Source: a bacterium
GTDB lineage: Bacteria > JAHJDO01
Direction: 5' to 3'
Assembly (NCBI GenBank): GCA_018812485.1
Contig: JAHJDO010000011.1
Location: forward strand, 1-46,603
Length of the DNA stretch: 46,603 nucleotides
Under the pieces are notes generated by a model. It made no database searches. It saw nothing but the letters and a program-made list of their open reading frames with translations, and was not told the DNA's origin. The translations under genes and the position numbers were made by a program. This document shows, in pieces, positions 3,701-41,240 of the stretch (position 1 is its first letter; every line of letters starts with the position of its first letter).

Positions 3701-6573
3701 CTTTGCCATTTGTCAGAATATATTACAATATTCAAACCAGTACCAGCCGCTGAGCCTCTGTGAATGGTTACGATTCTTGCATCTGGATTAGCTGCAGCAT
3801 ATGAAGCATCTGCTTTGACCCAAGCAGCTAATGTAATGCCAGAGTCAGAAGCCAGCACATTAGAAGCTGGCAACTGGATATAATCGTCTGTTCCGTCAAA
3901 CTCTACGCATTTCCCGAACATCCCCCATTGATACCAAGCAGGTTCTCCTGTGCCTTTAAAGTCTCCATCATTTCCATATACTGACGAATCATAGGCAACT
4001 ACTGATGTAGAACTGTTCTCCAGATTATCAAAATGCCACAGGCCTATCGGGCTGTCAGCGCCGGTTCCGTCAAGAATGCTTGATGTTGTCTGCGTCCTGA
4101 GCCGCGTCTGCGTTCCCCGCGCGTCCTGCCAGATCTCCTCAGCTGTTTTTGCGCGGCTGTAGATGGCGACTTCGTCAATTGCGCCGTCAAAAAATGAGCT
4201 ATGACCTACACTGCAACCTATTCGGCATTTACCAGTAGTAGCACCAATAATTATATCTTGAGACTCCTTGAATTCACCATTAATATATAAATAATCTTTA
4301 TCTGTTTCTCCACCTACATGAACAACAGCAACATGATACCATTGATTTACAGACGGAAATTTATATGTAGAATTTATTATTGGAGCACTATATGCTGAGT
4401 GAAATATTCCAGAATTTCTTACTCCAATGGCGGATTGTTCTCCAACCGCATTATTACCTATCGCAACAATGTAACGATAAGCAGTACCTGTTATTGATGC
4501 TGGATAAATCCAAGCCTCAAAAGTATGGTCTCCATCTCCTACATTAAAAACACTATTAGTCCCGCAATCAACATAATCATTCGTTCCATCAAAACTCAAC
4601 GCGCTCTGAAACACTGCTGAATCCTCCGACGCATCTCCCCACACACAGCCGTGAACAATGCCTGTATTGCTGTTTGTGGATTCATCATATACCGTAGAAT
4701 CATCAGCGCTTGTCCCGCCTGTTAAATTTTCTCCTTCATCAAAGTGCCATAGACCTACCAATCCTGTTGCCTCATCCTTTCTCAGGCGAGAATCTCCTCT
4801 TTCATATGGATTAGTTAAAGTGCTAGGGTCATTCCATTCTATTGTTTTCCACACAACAGGCGAATCCGCGTCAAATGTGGAGGAAAGCAGCACACCTCTG
4901 GGAGCATTATCTCCCAGACTCTGTATTATTGATGTATCTGCATGTGCGGCTATTTCATCCGCGCTCAGAGCGTGATCATAAATTTTGACTTCGTCAATGG
5001 CGCCGTCGAAATATCTATATTCTTGATTATCTTTGCCTATAACGGTATTGCCATTACTATCACCAACATCGACACTGCTTGTTCCTGATGCAGTAAAAAT
5101 TCCATTAATATATCCATCAACATCCGTTCCGTCTCTTGTTACAGCTATATGAACCCATTCACTCGCTGGAATATTACCAGAATTTATCTCCGTAACATTA
5201 TCTAATCTTACATATAATGCCCCGTTATGCGCAGAAATCCATAAATCCTGAGAAAAGGCACTTTGCCCGTTGTGGAAAATGCTTTGATAAGAATTGAGTT
5301 CATTTTGATAAACCCACGCCTCCACAGTAAAATCGCCAGTGCCAAAATCTAAACTACTCCCACTCTCGCAATCAACATAATTATCTATACCATTAAAGTC
5401 CAAAGCTTTTCCAAATACTCCATCAACCCATGTATAAGTAGGAGGCACAGAATATAAAGAGAAGTCATCAACTACCATGCTATGGGTGGGTTTGCCACTA
5501 TTTAGCAGCATTATAACCCTGGCATATTTGGTTCCTGACCACCACTGAGTAACAGGGGAAATTCCAGAAACAAGCTCTCCTGTGATTGTTCCGCTATACT
5601 CTGTCCATACACCGGTATCGACATCAGCGTTAGAGGCAGCATTATATATATATGTACTGCCTGCTTTATGTTCTCTAACTTTAGTTCCTGCTGAATAGGA
5701 TTGTCCACAAGTCGTATTGAACTCAACCTCCCAATAGATGCCCATATCTTCGACTCTGGTAATATTGTAATTGCTCACATTTCTATTCGGTAAATCGTTA
5801 TAACTTCCGGAATCATCAACATCAAAAGCCACACAAGCATAGATGTAAACCCCCCAATTGGTTCCATCTACAATCTTAATTATCGTAGAGTCCGTACCAC
5901 AAGCTTCATATAACGTGGTCTCCGTTCCGGCAGCATACGGTAAAACATGCTGCGGTCCGATCTGAACTTTATTTTCATCATAAGGAATATAGCCGAGATA
6001 CAATTTGCCTACGCTTCCATCTCCGCCATACGCTTTAGCCCAGCCTGAAAGATAATATGTTTTATTTGTTGTATCTATTTCAATATAATCAATACCTAAG
6101 GCAGAGCCGGTAAGGTCGTGATAAAAAGCATAAGTACCCGAATGTGTAGTATCAGCAGTAACTCCATCAAAGCCACTCCAATGGTCAGTTGTGCCTTCTT
6201 CAGCTCCTCTATTTTCAAGTAGCTCTCCAGTACCATAAAGTGCTCCATCATTATCATATGAACTCAAATCATAAATATTGGTATCTCCATCTATGTTAAA
6301 ACCCCAGAAAGCAACAAGCCCTGTATCTGTCATGGAAACAGCGCCTGCGGGATTATCGCCTACAACATTAACCCCTGTATCATATCGGGTTGTCTCACAC
6401 CAGAAAAACTGCGAATCCCCGCCTGACCAGTCTGTCTGGGTCCACGAGAAACACACAGTGGGGAAAGAGAGTATTAAGATAGACAACAGACCGATTAGAC
6501 CACAGACCATGGACCATAGACCACGGTCTGTTACTGTTGTCTGTCGTCTGCCGTCTGTTTTTTTATTTCTCAT
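736..6573 (-). CDS. Very large secreted LamG-domain/carbohydrate-binding protein
   Basis: A 1945-residue exported protein. The N-terminus has a signal peptide (hydrophobic IGLLSILILSFPTVCFS) whose first part is encoded by a dispersed heptamer repeat. There are three concanavalin-like LamG units marked by GLVAFWGF/GLVGLWHF/PIGLWHF openings, (F/V)DGTNDYVDC-type cores and GAIDEVKIY-type endings. The first unit is split: after GALYGTG comes a roughly 270-residue CBM4/9-like block (ENRGAEEGTTDHWSGFDG onward) before LamG resumes at VFGKALDFNG. A further jelly-roll domain resembling DUF1080 follows (FNDGDVGMGGYWQDYGTG), then Ig/fibronectin-like repeats to the end. I see no catalytic motif and no sorting anchor. 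It probably binds or displays glycans at the cell surface. Function inferred from domains only. Confidence 0.8.
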   Translation of the reverse strand: MRNKKTDGRRQTTVTDRGLWSMVCGLIGLLSILILSFPTVCFSWTQTDWSGGDSQFFWCETTRYDTGVNVVGDNPAGAVSMTDTGLVAFWGFNIDGDTNIYDLSSYDNDGALYGTGELLENRGAEEGTTDHWSGFDGVTADTTHSGTYAFYHDLTGSALGIDYIEIDTTNKTYYLSGWAKAYGGDGSVGKLYLGYIPYDENKVQIGPQHVLPYAAGTETTLYEACGTDSTIIKIVDGTNWGVYIYACVAFDVDDSGSYNDLPNRNVSNYNITRVEDMGIYWEVEFNTTCGQSYSAGTKVREHKAGSTYIYNAASNADVDTGVWTEYSGTITGELVSGISPVTQWWSGTKYARVIMLLNSGKPTHSMVVDDFSLYSVPPTYTWVDGVFGKALDFNGIDNYVDCESGSSLDFGTGDFTVEAWVYQNELNSYQSIFHNGQSAFSQDLWISAHNGALYVRLDNVTEINSGNIPASEWVHIAVTRDGTDVDGYINGIFTASGTSSVDVGDSNGNTVIGKDNQEYRYFDGAIDEVKIYDHALSADEIAAHADTSIIQSLGDNAPRGVLLSSTFDADSPVVWKTIEWNDPSTLTNPYERGDSRLRKDEATGLVGLWHFDEGENLTGGTSADDSTVYDESTNSNTGIVHGCVWGDASEDSAVFQSALSFDGTNDYVDCGTNSVFNVGDGDHTFEAWIYPASITGTAYRYIVAIGNNAVGEQSAIGVRNSGIFHSAYSAPIINSTYKFPSVNQWYHVAVVHVGGETDKDYLYINGEFKESQDIIIGATTGKCRIGCSVGHSSFFDGAIDEVAIYSRAKTAEEIWQDARGTQTRLRTQTTSSILDGTGADSPIGLWHFDNLENSSTSVVAYDSSVYGNDGDFKGTGEPAWYQWGMFGKCVEFDGTDDYIQLPASNVLASDSGITLAAWVKADASYAAANPDARIVTIHRGSAAGTGLNIVIYSDKWQSYTHNGTTGAWLDSGVTVDTDWHFIVVTNDGTTHRIYVDGAEKNDRALGFTAGTRVACIGHFDASAGQTYAWKGLIDEVAIYNYARSSTQIAMDARGWSRWSPYYKNADEDEIVLYKDNFNDGDVGMGGYWQDYGTGTWLIDNTISDTGALKITGLTSGDTGIIQANNTNWYNYQVEAKVKLKAGSQAGIILNYNRTGSNNGYAALLDEAAEQIGLYAMDTNGVTTAAPLKTYTYTLNADTWYTLKAQYDGSRIRVYMGDKIYITYPSSTSLVYTYKGYAGLIASTTIDNAEARFDDFKVFPIDRYCRYEATLTDNVCRDTTPYLYWVRLTYEDTTSDDSIWSRIIQDRYTYSTLTPRDTSITPAEFNYTDIDGADTVWCYNLENYDNQGDNIGVPNGAITVNVATPTTASRVDLRLGIRKTTAVNYPDEWPEDIDDYDWSDWRQYESGYGAVSGDTITWELTYSTTNLATDFATEGGYILQSRAVSSDGTEPDPTNFQPNDDNDRRDTAIIYMMRDITPPGSANTTGGVDGTASLSGYDYLTCANSGTNTLWTNVGVKSVISYPENATAYTSYNTNSEYVWFNIDSVTHDSGIRVKVVDQNQASGRTTDCSDLDETDSSIRYRYSLDGGNTWNASASETNISADIAEWAFADTNIWTDRYIVIKDAPAEAKTADNSGTGADNYRYSVASLDPGASDYATKGENVLIQLAQKDKAGNWGYSHRAATYYATQTSGCSTTGKGYYINVDLLAPDPRITAGPREANYSTSASFEFDDNSANDSPLLSAFKTMLQQGPTKADPASVAPSYRSWTSYQPWSPTSDEGSAIFTDLSTTATQNWYRCFVMAKDEALNECSEADSAVYYFQCLTPVPNTIIYSGPSGIITSPTSTYSATFKFKGEGGTPSYTFAYSIDGSAWTNNTTGTVTISSLGYGNHTFRVRAANSGGDPVTGLASDTDQTPASVTFTIEDPAHPSAVAPPSDPVKYWREESE
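6481..6562 (-). repeat. Heptamer-based inverted element, copy 1 (codes N-terminus of LamG protein)
   Basis: On the plus strand, RGACCAY heptamers (GACCACAGACCATGGACCAT…) are followed by GTCTGYC heptamers (GTCTGTCGTCTGCCGTCTG), so the two arms can fold on each other. Read on the minus strand it encodes roughly residues 4-31 of the LamG protein (DGRRQTTVTDRGLWSMVCGL). It closely matches the copy that starts lpxK and shares one arm with the copy inside nfnB. Confidence 0.85.
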
Positions 6574-8511: not shown

Positions 8512-8651
8512 CCTTCGAAATCCGAAATCCGAATATCGAAATCCTAAACAAATCCGAAATCCGAATTTTCAAAATCCTAAACATTGTTTTGATCATTTGT
8601 GTTTTGGTTATTTGATATTGTTTCGTATTTCGTGCTTCGTGCTTCGAATTT
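8512..8651 (-). repeat. Long imperfect-hairpin repeat (TTCGAAGCACGAA family), copy E
   Basis: On the minus strand it starts TTCGAAGCACGAAGCACGAA, has a palindromic centre (CAAAACAATGTTT) and ends ATATTCGGATTTCG. It is the only copy on the minus strand here, as are its neighbouring genes. The first half is translated as the last roughly 22 residues of the upstream GT4. The end abuts the start codon of the sugar transferase gene. Other copies are at 13771, 16126, 18353 and 24326. Confidence 0.85.
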
Positions 8652-9749
8652 ATTCATAATCGCATCCTTAATTTCCTTCTTGAATCTTTGCTTGTTAAAA
8701 GGAAGAGCGTTTTGGCGTATTTTATCTTTGTCAAATCTCATTTTTCCAAATATTCGTACAGCTTCAATCAAAGAATGCGGATTTTGTTCTTTAAATAGAA
8801 CTCCATTTAGACCATGTTTAATTGTTTCCAGAACGCCGCCTTCGGCGTAAGCAATTACTCCTTTGCCGCATGACTGGGCCTCAATAGGAGTTATGCCGAA
8901 ATCTTCCTTGCCCGGGAATATAAAACCTTTGCACATAGCATAGTATTCGTGCAGTATATTGTCAGGCTGCCAGCCTAAAAACGTTATGTTAGGCTTTGCT
9001 AAGGCTTTCAGCCTTTTTTCTTCCGGGCCGCTGCCGATTATTACAAGGGGCAGTTTTAACTCGTTGAACGCTTTAATGGCTATATCAATTCTTTTGTAAT
9101 AGGTTAGAGCTGAGATCATAAGATAAAAGTTTTTACCCCGAGACATTGTCTGAGACATTGTCTCAGGCATCGGTGTATAGAAATCAGTGTCCACAGGCGG
9201 ATATATAACGCTTGATTCTCTTCTGTAATAATGCTTAATTCTTGTTGCAACATGTTTTGAAATAGCGATAAAATCATCTACTCTGCGGGATGACGCTTCA
9301 TCCCATACTCTTATGCGGTTCATAAAAAAAGGCACGGTAAACTTGGAAACAGGACCGAGCCGCTCGTGGGAGAAATACTCGTGATACATATCCCATGCAT
9401 ATCTCATTGGCGTGTAGCAATAGCATATATGATAGGTTTCAGGAGGTGTTAGGGCGCCTTTAGCAACACAATGGCTGCTGCTCAGGACAATGTCATATCC
9501 ACGCATATCAAATGACTCTACAGCAATAGGAAAAAGAGGCAGGTAATTTCTGTATTTTGTTTTTGAGAAAGGCATGTTCTGAATAAAGGATGTTTTGATA
9601 TTCATTCTGTTTATAGTATCTGTTATTTTTTCAGGTATATGAACAAGTGTAAAGATTCGAGCGTCAGGAAACAGCTCGCAGAATATCTCCAGACACTTTT
9701 CTCCACCTCGCATACCTGTGAGCCAATCATGGACTATTGCTATTTTCAT
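8577..9749 (-). CDS. Glycosyltransferase family 4 (GT-B fold)
   Basis: A 390-residue retaining GT-B glycosyltransferase. The N-terminus has the acceptor-side pattern MKIAIVHDWLTGMRGGEKCL; the C-terminal Rossmann domain has LMISALTYYKRIDIAIKAF, FLGWQPDNILHEYYAMCKGF, and FPGKEDFGITPIEAQSCGKG with the E-x7-E motif. It probably adds a sugar to the lipid-linked polysaccharide unit made in this operon. Two oddities: a linker holds a duplicated 12-mer read as ETMSQTMS (9140-9163), and the last roughly 22 residues (EARSTKYETISNNQNTNDQN…) come from a dispersed repeat. The start overlaps the DUF1015 stop as ATGA. Donor and acceptor unknown. Confidence 0.92.
   Translation of the reverse strand: MKIAIVHDWLTGMRGGEKCLEIFCELFPDARIFTLVHIPEKITDTINRMNIKTSFIQNMPFSKTKYRNYLPLFPIAVESFDMRGYDIVLSSSHCVAKGALTPPETYHICYCYTPMRYAWDMYHEYFSHERLGPVSKFTVPFFMNRIRVWDEASSRRVDDFIAISKHVATRIKHYYRRESSVIYPPVDTDFYTPMPETMSQTMSRGKNFYLMISALTYYKRIDIAIKAFNELKLPLVIIGSGPEEKRLKALAKPNITFLGWQPDNILHEYYAMCKGFIFPGKEDFGITPIEAQSCGKGVIAYAEGGVLETIKHGLNGVLFKEQNPHSLIEAVRIFGKMRFDKDKIRQNALPFNKQRFKKEIKDAIMNKFEARSTKYETISNNQNTNDQNNV
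9140..9163. repeat. In-frame tandem 12-mer (GAGACATTGTCT x2)
   Basis: Two exact copies of GAGACATTGTCT, itself a near palindrome. Because 12 is a multiple of three, it adds residues without shifting frame (ETMSQTMS in the GT4). It lies in the variable linker between the DTDFYTP strand and the C-terminal Rossmann domain. Confidence 0.75.
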
Positions 9750-14754: not shown

Positions 14755-16118
14755 TGCCTGAACAGCTGCCGCAGGAGAGAATAAAAAACTTTAATGAAGT
14801 TGCTCTTGGATATAATGAGGATCAGGCAGTTGCAGAAGCAAAAAGATGCCTGCAATGTAAAAAAGCTCCGTGTATGGCAGGATGTCCTGTAGAAATAGAT
14901 ATTCCGGGATTTATAGAACTTGTTGCAGAACGCAAATTTTCTGAGGCGCTAGATAGAATAAGAGAGAAGAATAATCTTCCTGCTATTTGCGGTCGTGTTT
15001 GTCCTCAGGAGACACAATGCGAAGTAGTGTGTACTTTGAAGAAAAAAAATGAGCCTGTTGCAATTGGGAGGTTAGAAAGATTTGTTGCAGACTGGGGGGA
15101 AAAAAATAGACCGCAGACCATGGACCATAGACCACAGACTATAGATGATAGACCACGAGCAGCAGTTATAGGGGCAGGGCCAGCCGGGTTAGCGTGCGCC
15201 GGAGACCTTGCAAAAGCTGGTTGGAAGGTAACTATCTTTGAATCCCTGCATGCGCCTGGAGGGGTGTTAAGATACGGCATTCCTGAATTCAGGATGCCGA
15301 GAGATGTTCTTGATTATGAAATAGAATATGTTAAAAATTTGGGAGTAGAGATCAAGACAAATATTATAGTTGGAAGGACTATTACAATTGAGGAATTATT
15401 TGACGTAGGCTATAAAGCTGTGTTTATTGGCACAGGTGCAGGATTTCCGTATTTTCTTGGAATACCGGGTGAAAACTATAATGGTGTTTATTCTGCCAAT
15501 GAATTTCTTACAAGAGCAAATCTTATGAAGGCTTATAGATTCCCTGAATATGACACTCCAATCAAGATAGGAGAGAAGGTTGCTGTAGTTGGAGCAGGGA
15601 ATGTGGCCATGGATTCAGCAAGAGTTGCGAGACGTCTTGGGGCAAAAAAGGTTTGCATAATTTATCGCCGTTCGCGTTCTGAAATGCCTGCAAGAGCTGA
15701 GGAAATTCATCATGCAGAGGAAGAAGGAATAGAACTTGATCTGCTTACATTGCCTATTGAGATAATAGGGGACGGGAAAGGTTGGGTTAAGCAGGTAAAG
15801 TGCCTCAAAATGAAACTTGGAGAACCTGATGATACAGGAAGAAGAAGACCTCTTCCCATAGATGGATCAGAGTATTTAGTAGATATAGATACAGTAGTTA
15901 TTGCAATTGGGCAGGGGCCAAATCCTCTGCTTTTATCTATGACTCCCGGGTTGAAATTAACTAGAAAGGGGAATATAGTTGCTGATAATATTACAGGAGA
16001 AACCTCTCTTGAGGGAGTATATGCTGGAGGAGACATTGTAACAGGTGCAGCCACAGTAATTGAGGCTATGGGAGCAGGCAAGAGAGTTGCTAGAGCTATA
16101 GATGAGAAATATAGATAA
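14730..16118 (+). CDS. nfnB: NfnB / glutamate-synthase-small-subunit-like flavoprotein with repeat insert
   Basis: A 462-residue large subunit. N-terminal cysteines at 40, 43, 48, 52 (CLQCKKAPCMAGCP) and 87, 91, 97, 101 (CGRVCPQETQCEVVC) bind two [4Fe-4S] clusters. Then an FAD Rossmann motif GAGPAGLACAGDLAKAGW and an NADPH site VVGAGNVAMDSARVARRLGA with YRRSRSEMPAR. It is often annotated gltA/gltD, but pairing with nfnA argues for Nfn. Odd: residues 126-143 (NRPQTMDHRPQTIDDRPR) are encoded by a dispersed heptamer repeat sitting just before the FAD-binding strand. The frame is kept and all cofactor motifs are intact, so the enzyme is probably functional. Confidence 0.9.
   Translation: MQVQKRLLMPEQLPQERIKNFNEVALGYNEDQAVAEAKRCLQCKKAPCMAGCPVEIDIPGFIELVAERKFSEALDRIREKNNLPAICGRVCPQETQCEVVCTLKKKNEPVAIGRLERFVADWGEKNRPQTMDHRPQTIDDRPRAAVIGAGPAGLACAGDLAKAGWKVTIFESLHAPGGVLRYGIPEFRMPRDVLDYEIEYVKNLGVEIKTNIIVGRTITIEELFDVGYKAVFIGTGAGFPYFLGIPGENYNGVYSANEFLTRANLMKAYRFPEYDTPIKIGEKVAVVGAGNVAMDSARVARRLGAKKVCIIYRRSRSEMPARAEEIHHAEEEGIELDLLTLPIEIIGDGKGWVKQVKCLKMKLGEPDDTGRRRPLPIDGSEYLVDIDTVVIAIGQGPNPLLLSMTPGLKLTRKGNIVADNITGETSLEGVYAGGDIVTGAATVIEAMGAGKRVARAIDEKYR
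15109..15158 (+). repeat. Heptamer-based element, single arm, inside nfnB
   Basis: Seven RGACCAY-like heptamers (GACCGCAGACCATGGACCAT…) in an open frame. They encode RPQTMDHRPQTIDDRPR between the cluster domain and the FAD domain. Compared with the copies in lpxK and the LamG gene, only one arm is present, in the opposite orientation to transcription. Confidence 0.88.
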
Positions 16119-32304: not shown

Positions 32305-33569
32305 ATAAACGTTTAAATGTTATAGAACTTAAAAAGATGAGTGTTGAAAAAGTTCAGAAAATAGCCGAAGAACTTAAAATTAAAGATTATACTAGTTTGC
32401 CTGAACAGGAACTGGTTTTAAAGGTTACTAGAGAACATGCAAAAATGGGTGGGCACATTCACGGAGAAGGGGTTCTTGAGGTATTAAATGAAGGATTTGG
32501 GTTCTTGAGGTCATCAGACTACAATTATCTTCCATGTCCTGATGATATTTATATCTCTCCATCGCAAATACGCCGTTTTAGCCTTCATACAGGCGATTTG
32601 ATATTAGGAGAGATCAGACCGCCAAAGGAAGGCGAAAAATATTTTGCTTTACTTAAGATAGAAAAAGTAAATTCTGACGACCCGGAGATTGCAAGAAAAA
32701 AGATTAAATTTGATCGTCTTACCCCGATTTTCCCGCAGCCGAGAATTGTACTTGAGACAGAACCTGATGAAATATCTATGCGGGTCATGGATATTCTAGT
32801 TCCTATAGGAAAAGGGCAAAGAGGATTAATAGTATCTCCTCCAAGAGCAGGGAAGACTGTGCTTCTCAAAAAAATAGCCAACAGTATATCAAAGAATCAT
32901 CCGGAAGTGGTTTTAATAGTATTGTTAATAGATGAACGACCTGAGGAGGTTACAGACATGCAGCGTTCTGTTAATGGGGAGGTAATAAGTTCAACCTTTG
33001 ACGAACCCCCAGAGCGTCATGTGCAAGTGGCTGAAATGGTGATTGAAAAAGCAAAAAGATTAGTTGAGTGCAAAAAAGATGTAGTTATATTGCTTGACAG
33101 TATTACAAGACTTGCCAGAGCATATAATGTGCTGGTGCCGCATAGCGGAAAAATTCTCTCAGGAGGCGTGGATTCTAATGCTCTTCATAAACCAAAGCGA
33201 TTTTTTGCAGCTGCTAGACGCATAGAAGAAGGAGGAAGCCTTTCAATAATAGCAACAGCGCTGATTGATACAGGCAGCAGGATGGATGATGTGATTTTTG
33301 AGGAATTTAAAGCAACGGGAAATATGGAAATTCATCTGGATCGGCGGCTTGTGGATAAAAGAGTTTTTCCTGCTATTGATATGGAACGTTCAGGAACAAG
33401 GAAGGAAGATCTCTTAATAGATCAAAAAGACTTAAACAAGATTTGGCTATTACGCAAGGTGTTGATTTCAATGGGTGTAACAGAAAGAATAGAATTCTTA
33501 ATTGAGAAATTGAAGAAGACCAAAACAAATAGAAAGTTTATGGAAACCATGAATCAGGTGGAGGTATAA
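32301..33569 (+). CDS. rho: Transcription termination factor Rho
   Basis: A 422-residue hexameric RNA helicase. The N-terminal helix bundle ([20 protein letters not shown]) and cold-shock-like RNA-binding domain ([16 protein letters not shown]) are complete, with no insertion. The ATPase part has Walker [12 protein letters not shown] near 180, the [10 protein letters not shown] arm, Walker [17 protein letters not shown] and the Q/R loops [15 protein letters not shown]. The SD AAGGAG within the coaE tail suits the ATG at 32301; ATGs at 32283 and 32295 are in frame but badly spaced. Confidence 0.95.
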
Positions 33570-33600
33570 ATTAAAAATTAAAAATTCAAAATTAAAAATT
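33570..33600 (+). repeat. AT-rich repeat at the start of the STT3-like gene
   Basis: AATTAAAAATTAAAAATTCA and so on, immediately after the rho stop and 6 nt after the GGAGG. It reads in frame as LKIKNSKLKI into the first membrane helix of the next gene, and the normal start codon is absent. The same peptide occurs again at 34857-34890. Confidence 0.75.
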
Positions 33601-35475
33601 ATCCTTGCCCTACTTCTCATATATCTAATCTCTGTATTTATAAGATTCCAGATACTCGACCACAGAGCAGAGGCTTATGGTTTTCTCCCTTTTTCTAACG
33701 AATCCGCTCCTCATTTTATCTATACCAAAATCATTGTTGAGACAGGTAACCTGCCCGTTATAGACAATAAAATTCAATATCCAGAAAACATTAATATTCG
33801 AAAGAAAGTTTTTGTTTTTATGGAATATTTCTATGGGTATCTGTATAGAATTTCAACATTTCTGGGCAAATTTCAACTAACTAGTTTTATAAGACACATT
33901 ATTCCTTTACTTTTTTCATTGAGTATAATTGCGGTTTTTATATTGGCATATAATGTCTCTAAAAATCGGGTTGCAGCTTTAATTTCCTCAGCATATTATG
34001 GTGTGATGCTTCCTTCTGTGCTGGAAACTACAGGAGAAATTTTCCTGAAACAGACTTTTACTTTACCGCTTATATTCCTTAATTTAAGTTTACTGTTTTT
34101 TATTTCAAATCAGTATAGATACAAAACAAGGCTGATTTTATCAATTCTGGCTGGACTATTGCTTTATATTGCTGTTATATCATGGGATCTTACCCAACTC
34201 TATTTGGGGATTTTATTTGGGTCAGTAGCGTTTTTAATTATATACAGTAAGAGCAGCTCAAATTATTTAGAATTTGTTTTTATAGGTCTTTTATTTATGA
34301 TGTTTGCAGGTTTTACCAACCTTAGGCTTAGAGAGATAGGATTTCTCTACAGTCATGGGATGCTTTTTGGATATTCTATAACTGCAATTGCTGTAGTGAT
34401 GAAATTGAAGAGATTAAACAAATTAAAAATATTATTATTACTTCTTAGTGTATTTGCTTCTTTAGAGGTTATTAATTCTCTTGTGCCAAAAAATCAGTTT
34501 AGCACGTACTCTCATATAACGTCTCTATTTCTCTACAAACTCAGGTTCTTAGGAGTAAAACCAGATAATCCAGCTCTTTTGCCTTTTGATATAAACTTCA
34601 TGTGGTTACCTGCTGATGTTACGCCTTCGCTTATAGAGATAGTAACTTTTTTTAGCTCAACTCTTTTTATTGGAATTACAGCTTTTATTTTGTTTTTCAA
34701 AGTATGCAGGAGGCGAAACTCTCTAAAAGAAGACATTCTTCTGGTATCTTTAACTTTTTTATTTCTGATTTTCTATCTTCTTTTTGCAAGAATGAGTGTA
34801 TTTCTAATCTTCTTCCTATGTTGTTCTATCTCCCTTATATATAAATACATACCCCAATTCAAAATTAAAAATTCAAAATTAAAAATTCAAGTGCTGGTTA
34901 CAGCTTTACTTCTAATGTTCCTGCCTTTTGAATATATAAAGACAGCCCATATTTGCAAAAAACTTGGATTTATTGAACATCCTTCGTCCATAATGGATGT
35001 ATGTAAATGGCTTAAAGAGAACACTCCTGAAAATAGTCCTATTGCAACAAACTTTTCAGTAGCAGGATTTATAAGGTTGTATGCAGACAGACCTGTATTA
35101 ATTCATGCAAAAGTAGAGTCGGATGATATAAGAAATAAAATAAAAAATTATATGTACTCAATGTTTTCAAGAGATGAAACTGAATTGTGGAGATTCTGTC
35201 AGGATAGGGACGCAAATTATCTTGTTTATACAATGGGGACTTATATTACTAGAGGAGTGTATTCATGGAGGTATATAACGGGCAATTTAAGATTTGATGA
35301 AGCAACAACTGCTTTTAAACTTGAATTCAAACCTGAAGAACTGAAAAAGTTCGAATTAAAGTATAAGAATAGGTATTATAAAGTTTATAAGATATTCTCA
35401 AGAGAGGAGATTGAAGAGGAGGGCAAAATAAGAAAAGCTATTGAAGCATTTAAAAAGGCGAGGATGCCTCGCTGA
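33577..35475 (+). CDS. STT3-like (GT-C) integral membrane glycosyltransferase
   Basis: A multi-pass protein of about 630 residues. In-frame coding clearly continues 5' of the first ATG (33820): ILALLLIYLISVFIRFQI is a first membrane helix, and SAPHFIYTKIIVETGNLPVI with IQYPEN matches the first loop of STT3/PglB-type oligosaccharyltransferases. No ATG, GTG or TTG exists in that stretch after the rho stop; ATT at 33577, 12 nt after GGAGG, is my tentative start. About ten more helices follow, then a soluble C-terminal part starting with VCKWLKENTPENSPIATNF. An AT-rich repeat is translated inside the gene (KIKNSKLKIQ). Probably transfers lipid-linked sugars; the WWDYG motif is not seen. Confidence 0.75.
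   Translation: MKNSKLKIILALLLIYLISVFIRFQILDHRAEAYGFLPFSNESAPHFIYTKIIVETGNLPVIDNKIQYPENINIRKKVFVFMEYFYGYLYRISTFLGKFQLTSFIRHIIPLLFSLSIIAVFILAYNVSKNRVAALISSAYYGVMLPSVLETTGEIFLKQTFTLPLIFLNLSLLFFISNQYRYKTRLILSILAGLLLYIAVISWDLTQLYLGILFGSVAFLIIYSKSSSNYLEFVFIGLLFMMFAGFTNLRLREIGFLYSHGMLFGYSITAIAVVMKLKRLNKLKILLLLLSVFASLEVINSLVPKNQFSTYSHITSLFLYKLRFLGVKPDNPALLPFDINFMWLPADVTPSLIEIVTFFSSTLFIGITAFILFFKVCRRRNSLKEDILLVSLTFLFLIFYLLFARMSVFLIFFLCCSISLIYKYIPQFKIKNSKLKIQVLVTALLLMFLPFEYIKTAHICKKLGFIEHPSSIMDVCKWLKENTPENSPIATNFSVAGFIRLYADRPVLIHAKVESDDIRNKIKNYMYSMFSRDETELWRFCQDRDANYLVYTMGTYITRGVYSWRYITGNLRFDEATTAFKLEFKPEELKKFELKYKNRYYKVYKIFSREEIEEEGKIRKAIEAFKKARMPR
34857..34890 (+). repeat. AT-rich repeat inside the STT3-like gene
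   Basis: ATTCAAAATTAAAAATTCAA followed by AAATTAAAAATTCAA in coding frame, giving FKIKNSKLKIQ between two membrane helices. Nearly identical to the repeat at the start of the same gene. The frame is preserved. Confidence 0.75.
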
Positions 35476-38775: not shown

Positions 38776-39117
38776 GTGTCAAAACGACGAACAGATCAAA
38801 TAAATCAATCCTTAAAAAGAGAAATCAGCAGGATATTGCTTATAGATATGAATGATATAGCTGTAAAACTTGTTACAATCAATAGGGTTGAAGTAAGTTC
38901 TGATCTACACTATGCTAAGGTTTATCTAATTCCTTTTGGGGAAGATAAAAATAGAGTTATGAGACATATCCGGCAAGCTAGTGGATTTATCAGAACTCGT
39001 ATTGCCAATAGTATGAATCTAAGGATTACTCCTGAGCTACACTTTATATATGATAAGGCTTTTGAAGACGGAATGCGTGTTCTAAAGAAGATAGATGAAA
39101 TTTCTAAGCAAAAATGA
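38776..39117 (+). CDS. rbfA: Ribosome-binding factor A
   Basis: A 113-residue KH-fold 30S maturation factor (SKRRTDQINQSLKREISRIL, VTINRVEVSSDLHYAKVYL, RITPELHFIYDKAFEDGMRV). GTG start. Overlaps the start of nrnA by 23 nt. Standard place after infB. Confidence 0.94.
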   Translation: MSKRRTDQINQSLKREISRILLIDMNDIAVKLVTINRVEVSSDLHYAKVYLIPFGEDKNRVMRHIRQASGFIRTRIANSMNLRITPELHFIYDKAFEDGMRVLKKIDEISKQK

Positions 39118-40078
39118 GAAGATTATAAACAGGATTATCAGTCAAATAGACTGCCACAAAAAATTTCTTATTACCACTCATGTCTATCCTGACGGAGATG
39201 CAATTGGTTCCCAAATAGCTTTATATCTGCTTTTAAAGAGAATAGGAAAAGACGTTGAGCTAATTAATTCATTTCCCTTGCCAGCAAGATATAAGTTTCT
39301 TCCAAACAGCAGGTTAATTAAGCATAATGTAACCCTGCCGTATAGTGAAATAGCGTTCGTATTAGATGTTGGGAGCAAAGGCAGGCTGGGGAATATGAGA
39401 GACCATATAAATAATATAAAAACAGTAATAAATATAGATCATCATCTGAGTAATGATTGTTTTGGCATTATAAACTGGATAGATTCTCATATGAGTTCAG
39501 TTGGTGAACAAATTTTCCATCTTTATAAGTATATGAAATTAGAGATAAGGAAACCTGAGGCGGTTTGCCTATATACAGCTATTGTAACTGATACAGGGTC
39601 CTTTCAGTATTCTAATGCCAGCGCTGAGACGCATTTGGCAGTTTCTGAACTTCAAAAAACAGGCATTGACCATACTGAGATATGTAATCAAATATATCAG
39701 AACATTCCTGTAAGTAAACTTAAATTATTACAGCTTGCGTTGGAGACATTGAGTTTTGCGGCTAAAGGAAAGATAGGTTATATGTTTGTTACATCTGATA
39801 TGTATGCAAAGGCATGTGCAAGAGAAGAGGACAGTGAGGAAATAGTTGAGTATGCGCGCAATGCGGAGGGAGTTGAGGTAGGTATTCTCTTCAAACAACA
39901 TTCTCAGGAAAGTATAAAGATAAGCTTTCGCTCAAAAGGGAAAGTCAATGTTAATAAAATTGCATCGAAATTCGGAGGAGGCGGACACCACAATGCATCT
40001 GCATGCACAATTAGCGGAAAATTGAGCAGTGTATTAAAAAATGTTTTAAGAACTACAGTGTTAGAATTGAGAGTTTAA
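39095..40078 (+). CDS. nrnA: DHH-family bifunctional oligoribonuclease/PAP phosphatase
   Basis: A 327-residue phosphoesterase degrading nano-RNA and/or 3'-phosphoadenosine 5'-phosphate. Metal-binding motifs: THVYPDGDAIGSQ, FVLDVGSKGRLGN, NIDHHLSNDCFG (DHH near residue 114), and TDTGSFQYSN; C-terminal DHHA1 domain with FGGGGHHNASA. It overlaps rbfA and ends 4 nt before lpxK. truB, which often follows, is not here. Confidence 0.93.
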   Translation: MKFLSKNEKIINRIISQIDCHKKFLITTHVYPDGDAIGSQIALYLLLKRIGKDVELINSFPLPARYKFLPNSRLIKHNVTLPYSEIAFVLDVGSKGRLGNMRDHINNIKTVINIDHHLSNDCFGIINWIDSHMSSVGEQIFHLYKYMKLEIRKPEAVCLYTAIVTDTGSFQYSNASAETHLAVSELQKTGIDHTEICNQIYQNIPVSKLKLLQLALETLSFAAKGKIGYMFVTSDMYAKACAREEDSEEIVEYARNAEGVEVGILFKQHSQESIKISFRSKGKVNVNKIASKFGGGGHHNASACTISGKLSSVLKNVLRTTVLELRV

Positions 40079-40082
40079 TACT

Positions 40083-41240
40083 ATGGACGACAGATCACAG
40101 ACGACAGACCACGGTAAAAGACTATGGTCTATGGTCTATGGTCCATGGTCTGGTAGATATTGGCACGATTTTTTTTACAGAAATATAGTGTCTGATAATA
40201 GGAGGCATAGATTATTAAAACTGTGCCTTTTCTTTATTTCATTCTTAGTGACTATTAGCCAGAGTATACTGCTTTTTATGTATTCCATGAATCTTCTAAA
40301 GAAAAGGAAACTTTCTTCAAAAGTTATAAGTATCGGAGCTATAACATTGGGTGGAGCTGGTAAAACTCCTGTTGTAGAACTTCTAGTGAAAACGCTTATT
40401 AAAAAAGGGAAAAAAGTTGCAATATTGAGCAGAGGATACAGAAGAGTCGTAGAGAGTGATATAAAACTTGTTTCTAATGGCAAAGAGATTTTGTGTAATG
40501 TAGAAGAAGCAGGAGATGAGCCATATCTCCTAGCAAAAAACCTGAAAGACGCAGTCGTTTTTGCTGGTAAGAATAGATATGAAACGGGAAAAATCGCAGA
40601 AGAAAAGTTCAATGTAGATACAGTAGTTTTAGATGACGGCTTCCAACATTGGCGTTTACATAGAGACATAAATATAGTAGTTATAAATGCTTCCAGCCCT
40701 TTTGGTAATGGGTATGTTTTCCCAAGAGGGAATTTGCGTGAGCCATATAAGTGCTTAAAAAGAGCCGATTGCTTTATAATAACAAAGACTGATATGATTA
40801 AGGACGTAGGGATAATTAAGAAAAGGCTTCTTGATGTTAACAGTTCAGCACAAGTCATAACCACTATTCATAAGCCTGTATGTTTAAAGAATATTGCTGG
40901 AGAAGAACAGCTGGATATTGAATGTATAAAAGGGGAAAAGGTAATAGCGCTTTCAAGTCTTGGAGATCCAGTATCTTTTGAGAACACATTGGAACATGTT
41001 GGAGCCGAAATAGTAGCAAAGATTGGGTATCCTGATCATCATTGGTACTCAAAAGATGATATAGATAATATACAGGCAAGGCAAAAAGCGCTTAAGGCAA
41101 AATTTATCATTACTACACAAAAAGACGCTGTAAGGTTGCAAAGGTTGAATATTAGGAATCCTGAAATACTTGTTCTCAGAATTGAAGTAGAGATTATTTC
41201 AGGAAGCGATAGATTGGAGAAGTTGATTAATGCAATATAA
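40083..41240 (+). CDS. lpxK: Tetraacyldisaccharide 4'-kinase with repeat-derived N-terminus
   Basis: A 385-residue P-loop membrane kinase that phosphorylates the 4' position of the lipid A disaccharide. A membrane helix (LCLFFISFLVTISQSILLF) is followed by VISIGAITLGGAGKTPVVEL (Walker A), ILSRGYRR, DAVVFAGKNRYETG, VVLDDGFQHWRLHRDINIV and FPRGNLREP, all LpxK hallmarks. Odd: the start codon and first about 24 residues (DDRSQTTDHGKRLWSMVYGP) are encoded by a dispersed heptamer element; native LpxK similarity starts after this. The next possible native Met is within or after the membrane helix, so translation depends on the repeat. Confidence 0.93.
   Translation: MDDRSQTTDHGKRLWSMVYGPWSGRYWHDFFYRNIVSDNRRHRLLKLCLFFISFLVTISQSILLFMYSMNLLKKRKLSSKVISIGAITLGGAGKTPVVELLVKTLIKKGKKVAILSRGYRRVVESDIKLVSNGKEILCNVEEAGDEPYLLAKNLKDAVVFAGKNRYETGKIAEEKFNVDTVVLDDGFQHWRLHRDINIVVINASSPFGNGYVFPRGNLREPYKCLKRADCFIITKTDMIKDVGIIKKRLLDVNSSAQVITTIHKPVCLKNIAGEEQLDIECIKGEKVIALSSLGDPVSFENTLEHVGAEIVAKIGYPDHHWYSKDDIDNIQARQKALKAKFIITTQKDAVRLQRLNIRNPEILVLRIEVEIISGSDRLEKLINAI
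40086..40153 (+). repeat. Heptamer-based inverted element, copy 3 (codes LpxK N-terminus)
   Basis: Left arm of GACGACAGATCACAGACGAC-type units and right arm of ATGGTCTATGGTCC-type units, complementary in part (CAGACCACGG with CCATGGTCTG). Same orientation and order relative to the gene as in the LamG gene. It provides residues 2-24 of LpxK. Confidence 0.88.

Follow-up and report, generated by a model that had tools for sequence, protein, structure and literature searches.

A dispersed palindromic heptamer element encodes extra N-terminal residues of LpxK and was probably inserted in frame behind its start codon

Introduction

Rickettsia palindromic elements (RPEs) are short dispersed palindromes with an open frame that are inserted in frame in unrelated conserved genes (PMC10969869, PMC2229807). 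They are about 100–150 bp long, have family-specific sequences and are not described as heptamer arrays (PMC10969869, PMC2229807). Palindromic amphipathic repeat coding elements (PARCELs) are likewise palindromic DNA coding for protein repeats with a membrane-protein association; they form a 25-residue tandem repeat domain in ORFs of unassigned function (PMC2996958).

Cyanobacteria, Xanthomonas and Geobacter are known to have heptameric repeats (PMC4692102, PMC2670836, PMC2700814). The cyanobacterial STRRs or heptameric SSRs are tandem seven-bp units, sometimes inverted or hairpin-forming, dispersed and of no known function, which are treated as intergenic or promoter repeats and not as in-frame additions with changing unit families (PMC4692102, PMC2670836). 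The Geobacter metallireducens element consists of four tandem heptamers of another unit and occurs in 49 copies within and between genes; it was read as regulatory, and a palindromic four-plus-four layout is not stated (PMC2700814). REP/REPIN sequences are short dispersed palindromes too, but extragenic and 20–40 bp long (PMC3733652). Our searches of the open-access literature found neither heptamer palindromes described as in-frame elements nor translated heptamer peptides.

Here we analyzed a stretch of 46,603 nucleotides (contig JAHJDO010000011.1, the window) from a species termed G000, and compared it with four congeneric species, G001 to G004; all five are metagenome bins. By behaviour, RPEs are the closest known kind to the element found in lpxK. 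Here, too, a hairpin palindrome is dispersed (eight gap-free copies), and conserved genes carry such elements in frame where relatives are empty, i.e., those for LpxK, a T2SSG prepilin, a lipoprotein and a membrane protein. In contrast to RPEs, however, the unit is built of tandem inverted heptamers over 66 bp, many unit families coexist, the units turn over, insertion behind start codons is common, and the host is not Rickettsia but a lineage presumably from cold seeps. Because heptamer architecture and host differ, membership in the RPEs is improbable, the two being set apart by their descriptions rather than their sequences. PARCELs differ in that we find a single 22-codon insertion in housekeeping genes.

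Results

An additional 22 codons at the start of lpxK

The ORF downstream of nrnA was identified as LpxK by Pfam (PF02606, E 1.9e-85) and NCBIfam (TIGR00682). The best profile matches begin only at residues 46–54, with Pfam LpxK starting at residue 46, and residue 9 of the nearest solved structure, 4ehw, aligns with residue 50 of the window protein. The junction contains the following features:

39095–40078, plus strand: nrnA (DHH/DHHA1 oligoribonuclease), stop codon TAA at 40076–40078
40083–41240, plus strand: lpxK ORF, 385 residues, beginning MDDRSQTTDHGKRLWSMVYGPWSGRYWHDFF
40083–40085, plus strand: ATG, favoured LpxK start codon, aligned with the native ATG of G002
40086–40151, plus strand: 66-bp palindromic heptamer element, encoding exactly LpxK residues 2–23; left arm 40086–40113 (four GACSACA), loop 40114–40121, right arm 40122–40149 (four CTATGGT), then CT
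40131–40133, plus strand: alternative in-frame ATG (Met17) inside the right arm of the element, by direct reading
40152–40157, plus strand: GGTAGA (Gly24-Arg25), in the place of the native AATAAG (Asn2-Lys3) of G002
40158–41240, plus strand: native LpxK coding sequence from Tyr26, under purifying selection from its first codons onward
40188, plus strand: in-frame GTG (Val36), ahead of the membrane-helix Met66 (40278)

The 66 bp correspond to 22 codons, a multiple of three, and are stop-free in every frame of the lpxK strand. The two arms are mutually inverted over their whole length and enclose the 8-nt loop GTAAAAGA; across the junction of element and core, the protein reads, for example, LWSMVYGPWSGR. 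A preliminary description had assigned residues 2–24 to the repeat. The heptamer inverted element is indeed there, but the unit ends at residue 23, and Gly24-Arg25 occupy the native Asn2-Lys3 positions.

We found the same element in lpxK of G003, with 96% DNA identity, and G000 and G003 are sister species (support 0.998). In contrast, the alignment with related LpxK proteins that had been suggested as a check showed the extra N-terminal residues to be absent from G001, G002 and G004. G002 has an empty site, ATG AATAAG TATTGG (MNK-YWHDFF), compared with ATG-[66 bp]-GGTAGA-TATTGG in the window, and nrnA adjoins lpxK there too. The apparent starts in G001 and G004 read GTG AATAAA TTCTG(G/C), i.e., (V)NKFCHDFF or (V)NKFWHDFF. 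No relative was found that shares the N-terminus without having the repeat elsewhere in its genome; G003 has both.

In G001 and G004 (L009, L011), the genes ahead of lpxK were named by eye as HicB-like and DUF2442-like, and nrnA is not among them. LpxK appears to begin with GTG there, and this is a separate rearrangement of the same lpxK junction. Between G000 and G002, nrnA stop and lpxK ATG are 4 nt and 11 nt apart, respectively, and nrnA ends in LELRV compared with LELESSISV. As the upstream side with its shorter nrnA tail and spacer also differs, a larger local rearrangement at lpxK is possible.

LpxK translation starts in the element or at its edge

From Tyr26 onward, dN is low and far below dS across the five species; for the 42 codons from Tyr26, G000 and G003 differ with dS 0.449 and dN 0.040. 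The low dN indicates that this part is translated. Between Met17 and Tyr26, ATG, GTG and TTG are all absent in frame, and the LpxK start is thus either ATG 40083 or Met17. To judge by these codons, translation must begin in the element or at its edge. A chance or low-complexity frame artefact with the true LpxK start further downstream would agree with the late opening of the Pfam match and with the absence of a strong Shine-Dalgarno sequence upstream of ATG 40083 (direct reading), but the substitution pattern, the missing start codons and a reading frame preserved in both G000 and G003 make it highly improbable. The preliminary description had placed the next in-frame native Met at the membrane helix; this is true of Met66, but Met17 in the repeat and the GTG at Val36 come earlier.

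Did the element bring the start codon with it, as was originally proposed? The native ATG could have been lost and translation moved to Met17, which lies in frame within the right arm, or ATG 40083 could be a heptamer tail, as the trinucleotides preceding the 66-bp unit in other copies (ATA, ACA or AAA) resemble ATG. The nrnA tail and spacer unlike those of G002 would also fit. However, an insertion behind the native ATG pairs GGTAGA one-to-one with codons 2 and 3 of G002 and needs no loss of a start; moreover, the host ATG still precedes the element in the other N-terminal insertions, and ATG 40083 sits 4 nt past the nrnA stop. We consider a donated start possible but not likely. From the aligned sites, the element probably entered just behind the native ATG 40083. 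Of the initial proposal, the repeat-encoded N-terminal residues hence stand, while the ATG is more likely native.

AlphaFold2 gave confidence below 50 only at residues 1–26 of the 385 residues of the window LpxK, which partly reflects the absence of these residues from most aligned sequences, and a well-formed LpxK thereafter. The element-encoded peptide is predicted to be disordered in this model. It is probably tolerated rather than useful.

The 66-bp element is dispersed in the genus

Eight copies of the element, from seven non-orthologous loci in four congeneric species, align over 66 bp without internal gaps. The second copy in the window (6497–6558, minus strand) matches the lpxK element with 82% identity over 62 nt (E 1.8e-11), and a further match in the window lies at 15109–15157. 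Copies outside the window were found in three of the four congeneric genomes with identities far above chance; those at unrelated G003 and G004 loci share 88–89% identity with the lpxK element. The description of a dispersed repeat at the nrnA/lpxK junction was thus borne out. The GAC unit, i.e., the left-arm pattern, was absent from 284 genomes outside the genus; searches of Rfam gave no relevant family and plasmid records gave no match.

REP/REPIN sequences are tied to RAYT, a Y1 transposase. We checked 12 Y1 loci for such a mobiliser and found none flanked by arrays of the element kind, only two weak unrelated period-7 tracts, and within this family, the one searched, no mobilising enzyme for the element was found. 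As for MITE traits, the inverted arms represent terminal inverted repeats, but comparison of the lpxK site with the empty site of G002 showed no target-site duplication.

Heptamer elements occur in frame in many genes

Insertion of heptamer elements is a general process in the genus, and lpxK is only one among the many genes that families of such elements have affected. The window contains these further examples:

6497–6558, minus strand: GAC element copy within a LamG-domain ORF of 1946 codons, in its signal-peptide n-region, MRNKKT-DGRRQTTVTDRGLWSMVCG-LIGLLSILILS, with the first heptamer missing
8514–8653, minus strand: CGAAGCA/TTTCGGA element at the junction preceding a sugar transferase (Bac_transf), right arm in frame at the ORF N-terminus
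15109–15157, plus strand: in-frame array of left-arm heptamers in the linker of a GltD-like protein (Fer4_20 and Pyr_redox_2)
33557–33608, plus strand: AAAATTA/C heptamers, another family, at the N-terminus of a membrane-protein ORF of 640 codons
34848–34895, plus strand: internal heptamer array of this membrane protein; no array in G002 and G004, AAATCCG family in G003

The N-terminal array of the 640-codon ORF leaves no in-frame ATG, GTG or TTG ahead of the first helix.

The GAC element keeps its orientation and codon phase at several other loci. It follows the start of a T2SSG prepilin in G004, of a second prepilin in G003, of a G001 lipoprotein and of the LamG protein in the window, and it also lies in the leader of alr in G004. 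At the latter site (L139 5302–5376, G004:C109), it makes a short leader ORF, MTTDSKIDHRPQTMDHSKRLWSMVYRPWSSL, that ends a few bases before the alr start. Left-arm GAC arrays occur in the GltD-like linker, HisH, a PLD-like protein and others. Other heptamer families of the same design behave alike, e.g., MKSQKSKVKSQKFKEI, MSKFKIQNSKFKI and FGFRISDFGFRIS.

For the T2SSG prepilin, the filled site of G004, M-RT-[22 aa]-KRAGFTLIE, contrasts with empty sites in G003 (MRKRSGFTLIE) and G001 (MKKKSGFTLIE). A third prepilin has an element in G000 and is empty in four species, and insertions in frame with empty sites in relatives were also seen for the lipoprotein and the membrane protein. In prepilins and exported proteins, prepilin or signal peptidase cleaves off the segment to which the added residues belong, which would explain why they are tolerated there.

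In G003, the heptamer family that immediately follows the start codon differs from gene to gene in runs of adjacent prepilin-like genes (L121, G003:C44; L120, G003:C32). A non-heptamer palindromic repeat, LTLPSLDREGKGEGIFTPSLSREGGRGM, lies in frame at a prepilin N-terminus in G002 (L250, G002:C20), where G003 and G000 have heptamer elements.

Period-7 tracts cluster on some contigs and at gene boundaries

The window contains 14 period-7 tracts and none at lags 5, 6, 8 or 10 at the same threshold; the excess at lag 7, and at its multiple 14, was found both in the window and in heptamer-rich contigs of relatives. We located 57 tracts in heptamer-rich stretches, using a simple ORF caller on loci partly selected for carrying the GAC unit. 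Observed compared with random numbers were 22 versus 11.4 at N-termini, 7 versus 1.2 in leaders, 8 versus 1.1 in trailers, 5 versus 5.8 at C-terminal ends and 14 versus 36.1 in ORF interiors. A start-specific preference was considered and dropped, as the enrichment concerns gene ends as well as gene starts. The presence of tandem 7-bp units at many loci is a trait shared with cyanobacterial STRRs and heptameric SSRs, but the tracts are not mainly intergenic as in these, with 41 of the 57 lying within ORFs.

The tracts are clustered, i.e., the 14 of the 46.6-kb window compare with none in 195 kb of other contigs from the same bin at the same threshold; unselected G003 contigs had 8 in 566 kb. 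Heptamer arrays are concentrated on some contigs and missing from hundreds of kilobases in the same bins (window versus L098–L117 and L125–L213). One heptamer-free contig of the window bin has a 95% partial match in G003. The heptamer-free contigs are not obviously foreign, and mixed bins are a possibility.

Outside the genus, we found the TTTCGGA 24-mer in 7 of 380 distant genomes, with zero matches for a reversed-sequence control, and some of these matches lie in frame inside enzymes recognisable by eye. At L229, L237, L230 and L233, arrays reading FGFRISD or KSEIRNP are in frame within enzymes of distant genomes and of this genus; these were named by eye as WecA/MraY-like, carbamoyltransferase-like, IspG-like and PyrK-like.

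The same site can hold different units

In the GltD-like linker, the units are GACCATA in G000, GACGACA then GAGGGCA in G003, GACCACA in G004 and ACTCATC/ACCCATC in G002, with equal protein length. The membrane-protein site has AAAATTA units in G000 and AAATCCG in G003; G002 and G004 have no array there. In a T2SSJ prepilin with 86% identity beginning at the FTLLE motif, the units are AAATCCA in G001 and CGAAGCA/TTTCGGA in G004. Such changes could mean either that elements inserted repeatedly at hot spots or that units were replaced in an array already present.

A CGAAGCA element gives the GltD-like protein its C-terminal residues and stop codon in G003 and G004, and G000 and G002 stop earlier (L142 5826–5867, L159, L160).

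Unit changes at one site, and a single architecture shared by many unrelated heptamer units, might also suggest a local origin of the arrays, through fold-back and replication slippage in steps of seven nucleotides, instead of dispersal. Polymerase slippage has been proposed for heptamers (PMC4692102). However, slippage would not be expected to give the fixed length and conserved loop that the GAC element has at seven unrelated loci, and we regard it as an unlikely origin.

The hairpin shows no sign of selection on RNA structure

The element hairpin folds better than shuffled sequence (z –3.5 for the lpxK copy, –2.4 to –7.0 for others). Among the aligned copies, no base pair showed a compensatory change, and selection on RNA structure is therefore not supported. 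Codons 2–25 differ between G000 and G003 by three replacement changes and no silent change.

A functional insertion, in which hairpin or peptide regulates translation or membrane targeting of LpxK, with the same device on prepilins and lipoproteins, would be in line with the folding energy, the enrichment of tracts at gene starts and a location just ahead of membrane helices and prepilin signals. The absence of compensatory pairs, the lack of a silent excess in the encoded peptide and the enrichment of gene ends as well as starts argue against it; moreover, relatives manage without the element and unrelated heptamers fill the same sites. We find such a role quite doubtful.

Discussion

Comparison of the five species establishes 22 extra codons, an empty site in relatives, the dispersal of a 66-bp unit and conserved coding from Tyr26. 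We conclude, with a probability of about 0.8, that a dispersed 66-bp palindromic element was inserted behind the lpxK start codon in the common ancestor of G000 and G003, where it was tolerated as part of a spreading set of heptamer elements.

The element would have inserted directly behind the native lpxK ATG in this ancestor. Ribosomes ending nrnA at the stop 4 nt upstream may then re-initiate at ATG 40083, and the element would extend LpxK by an unstructured, hydrophilic tail of 22 residues, at the cytosolic side of the N-terminal membrane helix; the enzyme would tolerate this tail. Heptamer palindromes may spread in the genus and persist where the frame is kept and the peptide is harmless; such places would be linkers, gene ends and the positions that follow the start codon in prepilins and exported proteins.

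Only tentatively, heptamer palindromes, made by a mechanism with a seven-nucleotide step, might form a cross-phylum in-frame class in which insertion sites are retained, the seven-base unit is exchanged from one species to another, and protein N-termini and linkers are constantly rewritten.

In-frame palindromic elements are known above all from Rickettsia; here we describe the same behaviour with a different construction, in what is probably a cold-seep lineage. Insertions affect LpxK, an essential lipid A enzyme, and recur in prepilins, and the filled and empty sites among five species make in-frame insertion testable. That orthologous sites exchange one heptamer family for another is relevant to the origin and spread of heptameric repeats. 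Gene callers and structure modellers should be aware that an unusual N-terminus in a genome of this kind can be an inserted element.
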